This document shows positions 44,261 to 50,501 of a stretch of 64,000 nt of DNA, in pieces. The first letter of the stretch is position 1, and each line of letters starts with the position of its first letter. Source of the DNA: Syntrophomonas sp. (GTDB lineage Bacteria > Bacillota > Syntrophomonadia > Syntrophomonadales > Syntrophomonadaceae); assembly GCA_016841245.1 (NCBI GenBank), contig JAENZN010000007.1, positions 1 to 64,000 on the forward strand. Direction: 5' to 3'. Under the pieces are notes generated by a model. That model saw nothing but the letters and a program-made list of their open reading frames with translations, did no database searches and was not told where the DNA came from. The translations under genes and the position numbers were made by a program.

Positions 44261-44638
44261 GAACTCACCTCATTGAATTATTGAATACATTATCTTTTAT
44301 AGTACTGCTTATAGGAAATAATACGCAAATGAATAAATTTTCTTTCCCTTAAGGATCTTTATTGGTTTGCTTCAACAACACCTGCCCCTTTTCAAAAAGC
44401 TCCGGGCATTAATTACCAATAGAAAACTCCATTGCTAAGGTCAGGCAGATATCCACCTGTGATATACACCCCTCTCAAACCTTCCCCTTGTTCTTCTGGA
44501 TTTGCCTATATCTTAAGAAAGTCTTAAGATTTTTATGAAGCAGTTTGTAAATTTTGCCTGCCACAATATATATTGAAAGGCAGGTGTTGATATTGAGCGG
44601 TATGAGATAATCTGATTAGAGTGCAATGGAGGAATTTT
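44261..44638. other. Divergent control region
   Basis: It holds the direct/inverted TCTTAAGA repeats at 44510-44530 and an inverted repeat GCCTGCC/GGCAGG (about 44557-44585) around ATATATAT. No gene is seen. Confidence 0.5.
44510..44530 (+). promoter_or_regulatory. TCTTAAGA repeats, probable response-regulator site
   Basis: ATCTTAAGA aag TCTTAAGAT: two copies of TCTTAAGA in tandem with an 11-bp pitch (also a 9-bp inverted repeat), followed by TTTTTATG. OmpR-family regulators usually bind such direct repeats. It lies 109 nt upstream of the response-regulator gene, so autoregulation is likely. Confidence 0.5.
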
Positions 44639-45334
44639 ATGGAAAGATTTAATGTAATGGTGTGTGATGATGACGCCGCCATCGTGGATGCTCTAGAAAT
44701 CTACTTAAAACAGGAAGGCTATGGGGTGATAAAGGCCTATACCGGTTCTCAAGCCTTGCAGGCTTTGACCGAACAGGAAATTCATCTGATTTTATTGGAT
44801 ATCATGATGCCGGAAATGGATGGGTTGTCGGCCACCATCAGGATTCGCGAAGACCTCAATATCCCCATCATAATAATTTCTGCCAAATCCGAGGATACGG
44901 ATAAGATTGCCGGACTCAATTTTGGGGCAGATGATTATGTAACCAAACCTTTTAACCCTTTGGAATTAATGGCCCGGGTTAAATCACAGATGCGCCGATA
45001 CACCGCCCTGGGGAGTATAGCCCTTAAAAACGGTATATTAAGAACCGGTGGTCTGGAACTGGACCGGGAAGGCAAAGAAGTTCGGGTTGATGGGGAAATC
45101 ATCCGGCTGACTCCCATCGAATACGGGATAGTGGTTTTTTTAATGGAGAATATGGGGCATGTTTTCTCCATAGCCCAGATTTACGAACAGGTGTGGAATG
45201 AACCTTCTTATTCGGCGGAAAACACAGTGGCCGTGCATATAAGGAGAATTCGTGAAAAAATTGAAATCAATCCTAGAGAACCAAAATATTTAAAGGTGGT
45301 ATGGGGTATTGGATATAAAATCGAGAAATATTAG
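44639..45334 (+). CDS. OmpR/PhoB-family response regulator
   Basis: This 231-aa regulator has a receiver domain with acidic pair Asp10-Asp11, phosphoacceptor Asp54 in ILLDIMMPEMDG and Lys in YVTKPFNP, followed by a winged-helix DNA-binding domain (LTPIEYGIVVFLMENMGHVF ... NTVAVHIRRIREKIEINP). ATG 44639 follows GGAGG; an in-frame GTG at 44621 would include that site. It overlaps the histidine kinase gene by 26 nt. Confidence 0.95.
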   Translation: MERFNVMVCDDDAAIVDALEIYLKQEGYGVIKAYTGSQALQALTEQEIHLILLDIMMPEMDGLSATIRIREDLNIPIIIISAKSEDTDKIAGLNFGADDYVTKPFNPLELMARVKSQMRRYTALGSIALKNGILRTGGLELDREGKEVRVDGEIIRLTPIEYGIVVFLMENMGHVFSIAQIYEQVWNEPSYSAENTVAVHIRRIREKIEINPREPKYLKVVWGIGYKIEKY

Positions 45335-47309
45335 CTACTCCAGCGGGGTTAAACTGCTGGCTATCATCATAGTCTGGCTGGGCTTTTTGGGGACTATAGG
45401 CGGTTGTCTCTTCTGGTTTGAGAATCGCGGAATGGCAAGTTTGTCAAGCTATAGCGAGACCTATTCGTTCCAAAGCAACTTTTCCCGGCTGGTGTATAAT
45501 ACGGTCGAATATCATCTCGCACTCCCAAGCGAAGACAATATAAAAAGTTCAACTGAAGATCCACCAAGCCAGACCGATAATTTACAGCTTTCCCATGGCA
45601 TTGAAAATCGGTTTCCTGTTCCGGTCAATTTCGTATATTATGTTCAGAATACCGAAACCGGAGAGACGTGGAGCAATTTGGATTTGGAACAAACCGATCC
45701 GATCAAGTATATTCAAAAACAGCCGGCTGCAGCCTTCTTTAGTGGCTGGACATCTAATTCTAGTGTACCGATAAGCGAAAATGTCGAAGATATGCTGGCT
45801 GGCAGCCCCTATGAAGTATATGCAGCTGTTGCAGAACCGCTGCAGCCAGGGGATGTATTTTACGACGAATATGTCGATTATAACCAGAGCAAAGTACTGT
45901 CCCAGACCGCTTCCACTGTATCGATTACATCTTTTTTCTTCATGGCTCTGGCTTTTATATATCTGATATATATCACCCTTCGCCGTGATCCGGAAGAAAT
46001 AAAGGCGCATCGGCCGGTCAGGATGTATACCGATGTGCATACCCTGCTGGTTGTTATAGCTGCTGTCATTTCATTGACCGTAGGGGTCGGTACTTCTATG
46101 GGGATACCTGATATAGTGACCTTGGTATTTCTGGCTATTGTTCTCAGCCTGGATATCTTCATCGGTATATTTTATGTTTTGTCTATGACAGAACAGATCA
46201 GGACCGGGCAGATTTTTGTCAACACCTTGATTTACAAGCTCGGCTTGGCTTTAAAAGATTTCCTCCGCCTGGCTTTCCATGGCAAGGTTTTTAAAGAATG
46301 GCTGCTGCTGCTGTTGGTGGGATATGGCTTCATAAACGGGTTATTATTTATCCTTTGCACTAAAAGCCATTATGGGTATTTAAACGGCACCTTCCTCTTT
46401 ATGGTCCTAATATTACTGGCCTTCAATGCCGGGGTAATCTATTTTGCAGCCCGGTCGCTGGTCGCTCTGCCACAAATCATGGAAGCAGCCAGACAGATAT
46501 CGGCTGGAAACCTGGACTACCCTCTGGACAGCAGCCTCATGCCGGTCAGTTTTGCATCTTTTGCCCAGGATATCAGCAGCCTTCAGGGCGGATTGAAAAA
46601 AGCGGTAGACATAGCCCTCAAGGGAGAGCGGATGAAGACCGACCTTATCACCAATGTTTCCCATGATCTAAAAACCCCGCTTACTTCCATCGTCAATTAT
46701 GTTGACCTGCTCCAGAAGGAAAACCTGGAGAATGAAACAGCGGCTGAATATGTAAACATATTGGAAGAAAAAGCTTACCGTATGAAGCAGCTCATTGAGG
46801 ACCTGGTGGAAGCCAGCAAAGCATCCAGCGGCAACCTGGCAGTGGCCGGCGAAAAAGTAGACCTGCAGGAGTTGATACGGCAGGCTTGCGGAGAATATGA
46901 GGAGAAAATCCAACAGGCGCAGCTGGACCTTCAGGTTCAAAATACTGATGAAGCAGTGGTCATATGGGCAGATGGCAAACATATGTGGCGGATAGCCGAA
47001 AATCTGCTGTCCAACGTGATAAAATACTCCATGCCCCATTCCCGGGTGTATATCGAAATTGCCTCGGATAATGGCTATGGATCTTTTACCATCAAAAACA
47101 TATCTGCTTGCCCCCTGAATATCTCTCCAGAACAGCTCACCGAGCGCTTTGTTCGGGGAGATGAATCCAGAAGCACCGACGGATCAGGTCTGGGGCTTTC
47201 CATCGCACAGAGTTTAAGCAATTTGCAGGGCGGAGAATTTCAGGTGGAAATCGACGGCGATTTATTCAAAGTGACAGTAGCTATACCTTTATGGACAGAA
47301 GAACAGTAA
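45309..47309 (+). CDS. Multi-pass membrane sensor histidine kinase
   Basis: The 666-aa partner of the response regulator has one N-terminal membrane helix, an extracytoplasmic domain (about 40-195), then about five membrane helices (200-385), a HAMP-like linker (RQISAGNLDYPLD), a HisKA dimerisation helix with the phosphoacceptor His in NVSHDLKTPLTSIV, and the ATPase with ENLLSNVIKYS and GSGLGLSIAQSL. TTG is the likely start (AAAGGTGG 9 nt upstream), inside the end of the regulator gene. This topology is seen in kinases sensing cell-wall or antibiotic stress. The signal is unknown. Confidence 0.92.
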   Translation: MDIKSRNISYSSGVKLLAIIIVWLGFLGTIGGCLFWFENRGMASLSSYSETYSFQSNFSRLVYNTVEYHLALPSEDNIKSSTEDPPSQTDNLQLSHGIENRFPVPVNFVYYVQNTETGETWSNLDLEQTDPIKYIQKQPAAAFFSGWTSNSSVPISENVEDMLAGSPYEVYAAVAEPLQPGDVFYDEYVDYNQSKVLSQTASTVSITSFFFMALAFIYLIYITLRRDPEEIKAHRPVRMYTDVHTLLVVIAAVISLTVGVGTSMGIPDIVTLVFLAIVLSLDIFIGIFYVLSMTEQIRTGQIFVNTLIYKLGLALKDFLRLAFHGKVFKEWLLLLLVGYGFINGLLFILCTKSHYGYLNGTFLFMVLILLAFNAGVIYFAARSLVALPQIMEAARQISAGNLDYPLDSSLMPVSFASFAQDISSLQGGLKKAVDIALKGERMKTDLITNVSHDLKTPLTSIVNYVDLLQKENLENETAAEYVNILEEKAYRMKQLIEDLVEASKASSGNLAVAGEKVDLQELIRQACGEYEEKIQQAQLDLQVQNTDEAVVIWADGKHMWRIAENLLSNVIKYSMPHSRVYIEIASDNGYGSFTIKNISACPLNISPEQLTERFVRGDESRSTDGSGLGLSIAQSLSNLQGGEFQVEIDGDLFKVTVAIPLWTEEQ

Positions 47310-47831: not shown

Positions 47832-48266
47832 TTGAATAAAAGAAAATCACAAATCCTTAATATTTGCAGCTATTTGTTTTGTTTATTTGTATATTTTATT
47901 GTAATCTATGAACGCCCGAAACTACTCGCAAAAAATGAGGCGCAACTCCGTACCTTGCATGACATTTTGGGACTTAACTATACCCCCCATACTTATATTG
48001 AATTCGATCATATATATTTAACCATACTATGTTTATTGTTTCTTGTTTGGATGGTTTATCATTTATTTCACACATCCAAGATTGTGGATTTTACATTCTA
48101 TATGTTTATTATATTTTGGGTAGGAGTTATGATTTATAAATATTATGGTTTTATTAAACAATCCAATACTCTTATGGCTAGCTTCATTTTTCTTTTTGCA
48201 GTGTTTCTCTGGATTGGTTTTTCAGGACTTAAAAAAATTGTAATCGATAAAAATGCTCCTTTATAA
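47832..48266 (+). CDS. Four-helix membrane protein of unknown function
   Basis: This 144-aa protein has four hydrophobic segments (CSYLFCLFVYFIVIY; IYLTILCLLFLVWMVYHLF; FTFYMFIIFWVGVMIY; LMASFIFLFAVFLWIGF) and short loops. TTG 47832 follows GAGGT by 8 nt; no ATG fits. No family is recognised. It stands alone between the sensor kinase and the BlaI-like gene. Confidence 0.6.
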   Translation: MNKRKSQILNICSYLFCLFVYFIVIYERPKLLAKNEAQLRTLHDILGLNYTPHTYIEFDHIYLTILCLLFLVWMVYHLFHTSKIVDFTFYMFIIFWVGVMIYKYYGFIKQSNTLMASFIFLFAVFLWIGFSGLKKIVIDKNAPL

Positions 48267-48436
48267 TACCTTGGCAATCCGCTTGCTTCTTCGAAATATG
48301 CTATCGAATGTTCCATCGAATCCATAACCACACAGGTTTCCTCTGTTAGTATATTTATCTGATTCACCAGATGTTTCAAGTCACTTAGCTTTCCTATTTT
48401 ATTACTTTCAACCAATTTCATATTTGACTTCTTATT

Positions 48437-48476
48437 CTACATGGTGTAGTATATTTTTATAAACTACATGATGTAG
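48437..48476 (+). promoter_or_regulatory. Paired BlaI/MecI-type operators
   Basis: CTACATGGTGTAG (48437-48449) and CTACATGATGTAG (48464-48476) are near-perfect TACA/TGTA dyads with 27 bp between starts, just upstream of the blaI-like gene. TATATTTTTATAAA between them suits a -10 region. This is the classic arrangement for autorepression by BlaI/MecI proteins. Confidence 0.88.
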
Positions 48477-48496
48477 AACATAAGGGAGTGCTCCTA

Positions 48497-48877
48497 ATGC
48501 ATGAAATTCAAAAAATATCCGAATCGGAAATGGAAGTTATGCAAGTGATTTGGGGTTATGGACAATCACTCACCTCGGCAGAAATTCTGCAGGCGCTCAA
48601 TAAAAAAAAGAGCTGGAAACCCACAACAGTACTTACCTTTCTTGCTCGCCTGGCCGAAAAAGGGATCATAACATCCACGAAAAAAGGAAAAGTCAATCAG
48701 TATATTCCTTTGATATCGGAGAATGAGTATAAGCAGTTTGAAACCTATTCATTCCTTAATACTGTTCATAAAGGATCAGTTAAGAGTTTTATTACTGCTT
48801 TATATGAAGGAGATGGTATTACGAAAGACGAGATCGAAGAGCTGAAAAAATGGTTTTCCCAAAAAGCAGGTGAATGA
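48497..48877 (+). CDS. BlaI/MecI-family repressor
   Basis: A 126-aa winged-helix repressor: ISESEMEVMQVIWGYGQSLT (first helices), the recognition region KSWKPTTVLTFLARLAEKG, then the wing STKKGKVNQYIPLI and a C-terminal dimerisation helix that in the family carries the site cut during induction. ATG 48497 follows GGGAG. Two TACA/TGTA operators precede it. It is directly followed by an M56 antirepressor-type protease, so the pair forms a BlaI-BlaR1-like switch. No beta-lactamase gene is adjacent. Confidence 0.93.
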   Translation: MHEIQKISESEMEVMQVIWGYGQSLTSAEILQALNKKKSWKPTTVLTFLARLAEKGIITSTKKGKVNQYIPLISENEYKQFETYSFLNTVHKGSVKSFITALYEGDGITKDEIEELKKWFSQKAGE

Positions 48878-48878
48878 C

Positions 48879-50501
48879 ATGCCTCGTCTGGTTTTTGCAA
48901 CAATACTGGCGATGTCGGTTACGGGAGGAATCCTTTTATTGCTCATTTCCCTACTGCGGCCGGTTACCACAAAAGCATTTTCTGCCACCTGGAATTACTA
49001 TGTAAGTCTTATTGTACTGGTGTTTTTACTTATACCAATAGGTTTCGTCCCGGGAAAGGTTTTTGTAGATATTCCCCCTGGGCTTGTAGTTCAAGCAACG
49101 AATACCAATGCCATTTTCCGGGATGATATGCAGGATGATACAGTAAAGGCTATTACCGATATGGATTTAGATCTGGCTTACCAGAGGACAAACATTTTTC
49201 ATGCAGACGATCTTTTATATTATCTATTCTGGTTTTGGATTTCGGGAATGGTAATATTCATCGCTCATAAAGGTAAACAGTTTCTAAAATTCAAAAGAAA
49301 GCTTCTGGATACTAGTTTTCCTGTAGAAGAGGACAGCAGCATATATCAAGTATATCAGGAATGCAGATTCAAACTGGGAATTAGACAAAAGGTCCGTCTA
49401 CTGTGCAATGACAGCATTAAGACCCCAATGATAACTGGGCTGTTTAACACCTGCTTAATCATACCCCGAGTGGATATGGATAAAAGCGAGTTGAGATGCA
49501 TTTTTCACCATGAACTGATTCATTGCAAGAGACAGGATCTGTGGTTTAAGACGGCAGCCTGGTTTGCTAATGCGGTGCATTGGTTTAATCCCCTGGTATA
49601 CAGAATGGTTTACGACATCAATGAATTCTGTGAAATATCCTGTGATGAAGCAGTGGTTAAAGATATGAGCATGAAAGAGAGACATTTATACGGGCAAACC
49701 ATTTTAAATGTTTTGTCCAGAGTGGTTAATAAACAAGAAGGCATTTATTCAAATTTATGTGATAGTGAAAAAGGGATTAGAAGGAGGTTAATATTGATTA
49801 TGGAAAAAAAGAACTTTTCAAAAAACATTATTGCAACATCGATTGCATTATTCATGGTCATTTTAATAGCCGGATCAGCATTAGCATATATGCTGGTTCC
49901 ATCTGATGGAAACTCAGAAGAAGATGCAAGTTGGAAAACCAGCCTGGATGAGCTGGATAGCCAAGCCTTATTTGCAGATATTGTTGCCGATAATAATCTG
50001 GAAGCAGTAAACGCCGATGAATTTGAATCAGCACTTGAACAAATGCTTTTAATAATTGCTCAAAATCATACAAATACAATAGAAGAACAGGATATCGAAA
50101 CATTAACGGTTCCTGTACCAGATGGGATAATCACTTCCCCATATGGGTATAGAGTACATCCCGTAACTCAGGAACGTATGCTTCACTCAGGTATTGATTA
50201 TGCCCAAAAAGCTGGTACCGATATTGTAGCAGCAAATAGTGGTAAAGTTATCGCTACTCAAGATGATTTAGGCAGCAATGGATATGGCAACTATCTCATC
50301 ATTGTGCACAATGATGGAACAGCTTGTTTATATGCACACTGCAGTGCTTTGATGGTAAATACAGGTGACTGGGTCAATAAAGGGGATAAAATTGCTGAGA
50401 TCGGAAGTACGGGTATGTCTACAGGTCCACATTGTCATTTTGAATTTAGAATCAATGGGAAAACAGTTGACCCAACACCCCATATTAGTGTAACTGAATA
50501 G
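48879..50501 (+). CDS. BlaR1-like M56 protease fused to an M23 peptidoglycan peptidase
   Basis: The 540-aa membrane protein starts like BlaR1/MecR1: hydrophobic helices in residues 1-110, an M56 zinc-protease domain with HExxH at 211-215 (HHELIH) and the downstream EISCDEAV glutamate, and a transmembrane helix near 315-335 (IIATSIALFMVILIAGSALA). Where BlaR1 has a penicillin-binding sensor, it has a linker (340-405) and an M23/LytM domain with HSGIDYA (436-442, His and Asp ligands), LYAHCS and HCHFEF (518-523), so all M23 zinc ligands are present. The start ATG lies 2 nt past the blaI stop. It probably senses or cuts peptidoglycan outside and inactivates the BlaI protein inside. Confidence 0.88.
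   Translation: MPRLVFATILAMSVTGGILLLLISLLRPVTTKAFSATWNYYVSLIVLVFLLIPIGFVPGKVFVDIPPGLVVQATNTNAIFRDDMQDDTVKAITDMDLDLAYQRTNIFHADDLLYYLFWFWISGMVIFIAHKGKQFLKFKRKLLDTSFPVEEDSSIYQVYQECRFKLGIRQKVRLLCNDSIKTPMITGLFNTCLIIPRVDMDKSELRCIFHHELIHCKRQDLWFKTAAWFANAVHWFNPLVYRMVYDINEFCEISCDEAVVKDMSMKERHLYGQTILNVLSRVVNKQEGIYSNLCDSEKGIRRRLILIMEKKNFSKNIIATSIALFMVILIAGSALAYMLVPSDGNSEEDASWKTSLDELDSQALFADIVADNNLEAVNADEFESALEQMLLIIAQNHTNTIEEQDIETLTVPVPDGIITSPYGYRVHPVTQERMLHSGIDYAQKAGTDIVAANSGKVIATQDDLGSNGYGNYLIIVHNDGTACLYAHCSALMVNTGDWVNKGDKIAEIGSTGMSTGPHCHFEFRINGKTVDPTPHISVTE

Follow-up and report, generated by a model that had tools for sequence, protein, structure and literature searches.

A BlaI/M56 cassette with an M23 peptidase as predicted ectodomain: a putative autoregulated cell-wall receptor in Syntrophomonas sp.

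The closest described relatives of the locus studied here are the BlaR1/BlaI and MecR1/MecI systems of staphylococci and Bacillus licheniformis. Like these, it pairs BlaI with an adjoining M56 membrane gluzincin that has the same catalytic network and membrane layout, a wall-enzyme-derived ectodomain, and autogenous operators; unlike them, its ectodomain is an M23 domain and not a penicillin-binding one, and it lacks a beta-lactamase or PBP2a. The catalytic network of BlaR1 comprises H201, E202, H205, D210, D246, Y261, I265, and R294, ligand binding drives extracellular loop 1 out of the sensor site, and S. aureus BlaI is cleaved at an Asn-Phe pair, with the P1' Phe almost invariant among the BlaI proteins compared (PMC9834060). 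In Clostridium thermocellum, DAP-seq indicated that two inverted-repeat sites are needed for BlaI regulation, and one regulon, that of BlaI_1845, consists of its own operon only (PMC8457756). The BlaI_1845 system resembles ours in the repressor, the paired inverted repeats, and the self-directed regulon; it differs in that its operon has further genes and M23 is not named as the ectodomain of its BlaR1 in the account consulted (PMC8457756). The combination of M23 and M56 is catalogued in a review of M23 peptidases among the types with two catalytic domains, which make up <1% of M23 matches; these proteins have the same domain pair as ours, but they are only listed, without function, context, regulation, evolution, or mechanism (PMC9662197). 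Free-standing M23 endopeptidases of the LytM/MepM/ShyA type share the fold and active site of our domain, whereas they act in the wall or periplasm and are not fused to a signalling protease.

The DNA analysed (hereafter, the window) is a stretch of 64,000 nucleotides from Syntrophomonas sp. (Syntrophomonadaceae; GCA_016841245.1, contig JAENZN010000007.1, positions 1 to 64,000). It contains a two-gene cassette of ~2.1 kb, blaI followed by an M56-M23 fusion gene, under one promoter (Table 1). The domain assignments of the original prediction held: the blaI product is a Penicillinase_R winged helix (Pfam, 1.8e-31, 109 bits versus a cut-off of 22.6), the fusion has an M56 protease with intact HExxH (Peptidase_M56, residues 11–310, 1.6e-53), and an M23 domain with the His, Asp, and HxH ligands follows in the same 543-aa frame (Peptidase_M23, residues 439–535, 3.5e-30). 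The blaI start codon (ATG) is preceded by AAGGGAG, and no consensus terminator was found 3' of the fusion gene.

Table 1 Features of the blaI/M56-M23 cassette, in window positions
Feature	Position	Strand	Remark
Promoter: -35 TTGACT, 17-nt spacer, -10 TAGTAT	48424–48452	+	kept in relatives
Operator 1 CTACATGGTGTAG	48437–48449	.	between -35 and -10, overlaps -10; 5/6 symmetric pairs
Operator 2 CTACATGATGTAG	48464–48476	.	perfect palindrome, 6/6 pairs; 27 bp from operator 1
blaI repressor	48497–48877	+	alternative start at GTG 48488
M56-M23 fusion, 543 aa	48870–50501	+	start overlaps blaI end
HExxH of M56 protease (H214, E215, H218), predicted cytoplasmic	49509–49523	+	alignment to 8EXS
TM4, residues 325–343, leading outward	49842–49898	+	topology prediction; model helix 318–342
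Extracytoplasmic linker, partly disordered, one helix 382–399	49902–50102	+	alignment and model
M23 domain	50103–50501	+	Pfam match, motif alignment, Foldseek
M23 residue H439	50184–50186	+	
M23 residue D443	50196–50198	+	
M23 residue H490	50337–50339	+	
M23 residue H521	50430–50432	+	
M23 residue H523	50436–50438	+	

The M56 part can be aligned along its full length with BlaR1 of S. aureus (8EXS). Counting residues from GTG 48870 (H214/E215 correspond to H211/E212 of the original prediction, which counted from ATG 48879), the BlaR1 network has its counterparts in H214, E215, H218, D223, D259, Y274, I278, and R306, and E255 is the counterpart of the distal Glu of BlaR1, E242, whose role was assigned by offset. 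This network, including E255, is invariant in all six M56-M23 fusions that were aligned. Four transmembrane segments and the positions of Lys and Arg residues predict that the protease lies inside and the M23 domain outside, in agreement with the placement first proposed and against the cytoplasmic M23 domain that had been named as its refuting alternative. In an AlphaFold model of the fusion, both domains are well folded (mean pLDDT 82.5), and Foldseek searches with this model recovered BlaR1 (8EXS, 1.7e-7) and M23 structures, among them LytM bound to a substrate analogue (4ZYB). BlaR1 forms a domain-swapped dimer, but a single chain was modelled here, and the model places loop 1 (67–108) and the start of the linker (348–382) only at low confidence. 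Against the NCBIfam model blaR1_generic, the fusion protein scored 148.8 bits (cut-off 400), and Pfam places Peptidase_M23 at its C-terminus instead of a transpeptidase or penicillin-binding sensor domain.

The predicted operators are TACA...TGTA dyads located ahead of the cassette's own blaI. Both had been described as perfect; two sites are indeed present, but only operator 2 is fully symmetric. Relatives (L096, L097, L098, L100, and L101) have a TTGACA box, a 17-nt spacer, and TAGTAT or TAGAAT in the same place, and the operator layout is preserved with varying centre bases. Searching the 3.9-Mb genome, we found one copy of the double operator and none of the reversed control pattern, and all eight fusion-host genomes gave the same result, with the double site always before the cassette's blaI (in one of them, G214, the two genes are on separate contigs, each at a contig end). 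Because the double site occurs once per genome and the reversed control never, the predicted operators of the window are not chance matches. Given this uniqueness and position, the cassette seems to be an autogenous circuit without a beta-lactamase, its own promoter being the only double-site target. The claim that BlaI controls its own operon is borne out to this extent; its further suggestions, with M23 as the sensor, wall damage as the signal, and wall homeostasis as the purpose, are hypotheses. Sites with up to one mismatch showed no excess genome-wide (25 versus 33 for the reversed control), so no further target is claimed, and single-site targets may exist elsewhere; nor did this genome reveal an output gene beyond the cassette. 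The double-operator pattern matches the DAP-seq result from C. thermocellum (PMC8457756).

In the window BlaI, an Ala-Leu pair aligns with the Asn-Phe cleavage pair of S. aureus BlaI, placing Leu at P1' instead of the almost invariant Phe (PMC9834060), and the blaI genes paired with M56-M23 encode Ala-Leu or Thr-Leu here. An invariant Leu of the fusions (residue L296) aligns, within one residue, at the self-cleavage loop of BlaR1; as a guess, this residue and the Leu of BlaI would fit a matched shift of protease preference. Upstream of the cassette, at 44621–47309, the window contains an OmpR-type response regulator and a histidine kinase whose sensor region is long and crosses the membrane several times. 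These two-component genes and a membrane gene at 47832 were rejected as parts of the system because they are not conserved with the cassette, the neighbours in L096–L102 being unrelated.

We propose, with a probability of roughly 0.55, that the cassette is an autoregulated receptor that uses the BlaR1/BlaI mechanism, its ectodomain being an M23 peptidoglycan endopeptidase. In favour are the intact catalytic residues of both domains, the predicted topology and fold, the single double operator ahead of blaI in eight genomes together with the C. thermocellum precedent, purifying selection on M23 in the window clade, the movement of M23 between M56 bodies, and the Amidase_3 and second M23 ectodomains of other M56 proteins in this genome; against it count the monomeric model with its low-confidence loop 1 and linker, an M23 tree that leaves the number of gains undecided, and the lack of an output gene beyond the cassette. 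The two operators would be occupied by BlaI dimers, which would silence the promoter, and the membrane protein M56-M23 is predicted to expose M23 to the wall space and to keep its HExxH protease in the cytoplasm. By analogy with BlaR1, M23 would bind, or bind and cut, a peptidoglycan peptide or cross-link or a wall-active agent, which would change the state of M56; the protease would then cut the C-terminal part of BlaI, close to Ala-Leu, and so derepress the cassette. The main output would be more M56-M23, an amplifying loop that would also add a membrane-tethered endopeptidase to the wall where the active site is intact, e.g., in the window member.

That last effect might instead be the whole purpose of the fusion, with BlaI/M56 receiving its signal through the membrane part or loop 1 and inducing M23 as a payload for wall remodelling, an explanation we regard as unlikely. 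It is favoured by an operon that holds nothing else and by the M23 domain itself, which carries Hx3D (H439, D443), H490, and HxH (H521, H523), all the catalytic residues that characterise the family (motif definitions as in PMC9662197), and is apparently active, at a site predicted to be outside the cell. Every M23 catalytic residue is kept in the window clade (window, L039, and L070), where M23 omega is 0.17–0.33 and the domain is, by this estimate, under purifying selection. Moreover, an M56-M23 gene in a Subdoligranulum plasmid record (L117, 2014–5321; M56 frame interrupted) and an M56-M23-M23 gene on a human gut contig (L120, 112–2941; ends at the contig edge) are each followed directly by a gene for a secreted coiled-coil M23 hydrolase, which suggests that the output in other lineages is a wall endopeptidase (a search of a phylum sample for L117-type fusions returned stand-alone M23 matches only). 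Yet in the sister type (n = 6), where the zinc ligands are kept in all members, the second catalytic His is retained in three (L010, L071, and L106) and replaced by Gln, Val, or Lys in the other three (L058, L069, and L006, the last with Lys), and the fusion and the cassette persist nonetheless. Fusion to a receptor, at the very position of the BlaR1 sensor, would also be unneeded for a payload. Since the catalytic His is often lost in related fusions, binding may outweigh cutting in some of them; EnvC, NlpD, and LECT2, which have lost catalysis, provide a precedent for a binding role of M23 that may hold in the sister clade, whereas the window M23 retains every catalytic residue.

A different role for the ectodomain, which we consider improbable, is recognition of foreign wall-active agents (bacteriolysins, inhibitors, or competitor wall fragments) by a module evolving under conflict. 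M23 omega in the sister members without the catalytic His is ~1.0–1.6, versus 0.13 for the L058/L069 body (Fisher p = 1e-4), as such conflict would predict, but the high values rest on few silent changes (4 for L058 versus L069) and partly reflect mosaic recombination, and they do not apply to the window clade. In L106, loop 1 and the linker are fast-changing too. Relaxed constraint would account for omega equally well, and given the low counts and the contribution of mosaic recombination, both relaxed constraint and diversifying selection are possible for the sister type. A diversity-generating retroelement was rejected as the source of the variable M23, the changes being without adenine bias. 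Recognition of foreign agents would also suit the sensor swaps and horizontal transfer described in the next two paragraphs.

The trees of the M56 body and of M23 are discordant. In L006, a second fusion in the same genome (contig C11, 1450–2970), the body groups with L063 and the M23 domain with L058: DNA identity to L063 is 83% over 1513 bp (blaI and body), the C-terminus of L063 not being M23, while identity to L058 is 86% over 428 bp of M23, the bodies not being alignable as DNA. Between L058 and L106, the body dS is 0.098 and the M23 dS is 1.5. L006 thus looks like a natural chimera, and the two cases together suggest that the outer domain was exchanged between M56 bodies on two separate occasions. 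The M23 tree is compatible with one gain of M23 in the clade and also with two.

The domain search for M56-M23 fusions proposed as a check found cassettes in 8 of 544 Bacillota genomes (G000–G543, the set used for all searches), distributed over five GTDB families; the fusions are rare and patchy. The assemblies of G012 and G396 show an interrupted fusion frame, and G008 and G333 yielded nothing more than pieces of related M56 genes. In the relatives from G057, G239, G012, G396, and G460, the common stretch is limited to ~2.1 kb, from upstream of the -35 box to the fusion stop codon, and the flanks were unrelated wherever compared, indicating that the cassette moves horizontally as a unit between distant bacteria. 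The closest relative of the window copy, from a Syntrophomonadaceae MAG, is full length with 76% protein identity and has different neighbours. A scan of genome contigs gave a single relative, and no near full-length one turned up among plasmids or phages; possible fusions on Acetoanaerobium and Paenibacillus plasmids (H23, H24) were rejected as ordinary coiled-coil M23 proteins.

A sensor for beta-lactam or general antibiotic resistance of the BlaR1 kind is very unlikely, even though the scaffold and repressor family are the same. The original prediction that no beta-lactamase is present and that this is not classic resistance stood up: the operon contains neither a beta-lactamase nor PBP2a or another PBP, no beta-lactamase occurs among the neighbouring genes examined, and the genome has no second double operator. 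Genome-wide, there were three weak PF13354 matches (23.6–46.9 bits), all on other contigs. The cassette is BlaR1-like in anatomy and should not be classed as a beta-lactam receptor, because neither the sensor domain nor the target genes that define such receptors were found when tested for. That it is a non-functional or selfish regulatory remnant, as the patchy distribution and the broken frames of G012 and G396 might imply, is the least credible explanation, given the intact frames of the window clade, the conserved operators, and the purifying selection.

Under our receptor proposal, the cassette probably represents a little-studied class of cell-wall sensors. The name 'M23/M56 family metallopeptidase' is in use at NCBI and the domain pair is already known; we found no functional study of M56-M23 proteins in the open-access literature, and the cassette logic, its transfer, and the sensor exchange are, as far as our search of that literature shows, undescribed. 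The cassette bears on what BlaR1-like receptors without a penicillin-binding domain sense, and specifically on whether an M23 ectodomain senses wall cross-links and whether swapping the ectodomain changes the signal. With 2.1 kb, two genes, and one promoter, it could be tested as a whole in Bacillus subtilis, for which the natural swaps (L006, L058, and L106) and natural catalytic losses provide a ready matched set. If the proposal is true, peptidoglycan hydrolase folds are tied to signalling as BlaR1 ties penicillin-binding domains, and the cassette would be a modular wall biosensor.

The same genome has about nine M56 genes (L001–L008 and L130), eight with HExxH and differing C-terminal domains, and L130, a remnant without the N-terminal half. 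Among these proteins, Amidase_3 or a second M23 domain occupies the position of the window M23. In L003 (contig C1, 1480–3474), the Amidase_3 domain has its zinc ligands and Asp in place of the usual active-site Glu; a full-length relative was absent among 63 genomes of the class. The use of wall enzymes as M56 ectodomains seems to recur, since the sensor of BlaR1 is itself a relative of penicillin-binding wall enzymes. On a broader view, which we consider less likely than not, the M56/BlaI chassis would define a general receptor class with BlaR1 as one branch: it would accept interchangeable wall enzymes, sometimes catalytically weakened (Amidase_3 and M23 in this genome, a penicillin-binding domain in BlaR1), and would spread as self-regulating cassettes, the ectodomains of some members diversifying under selection by a shifting ligand. 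A further member of the genome's M56 set, L001 (contig C48, 1462–3057), is fused to DUF881 and adjoins its own blaI, whose product retains Asn-Phe at the presumed cleavage site.
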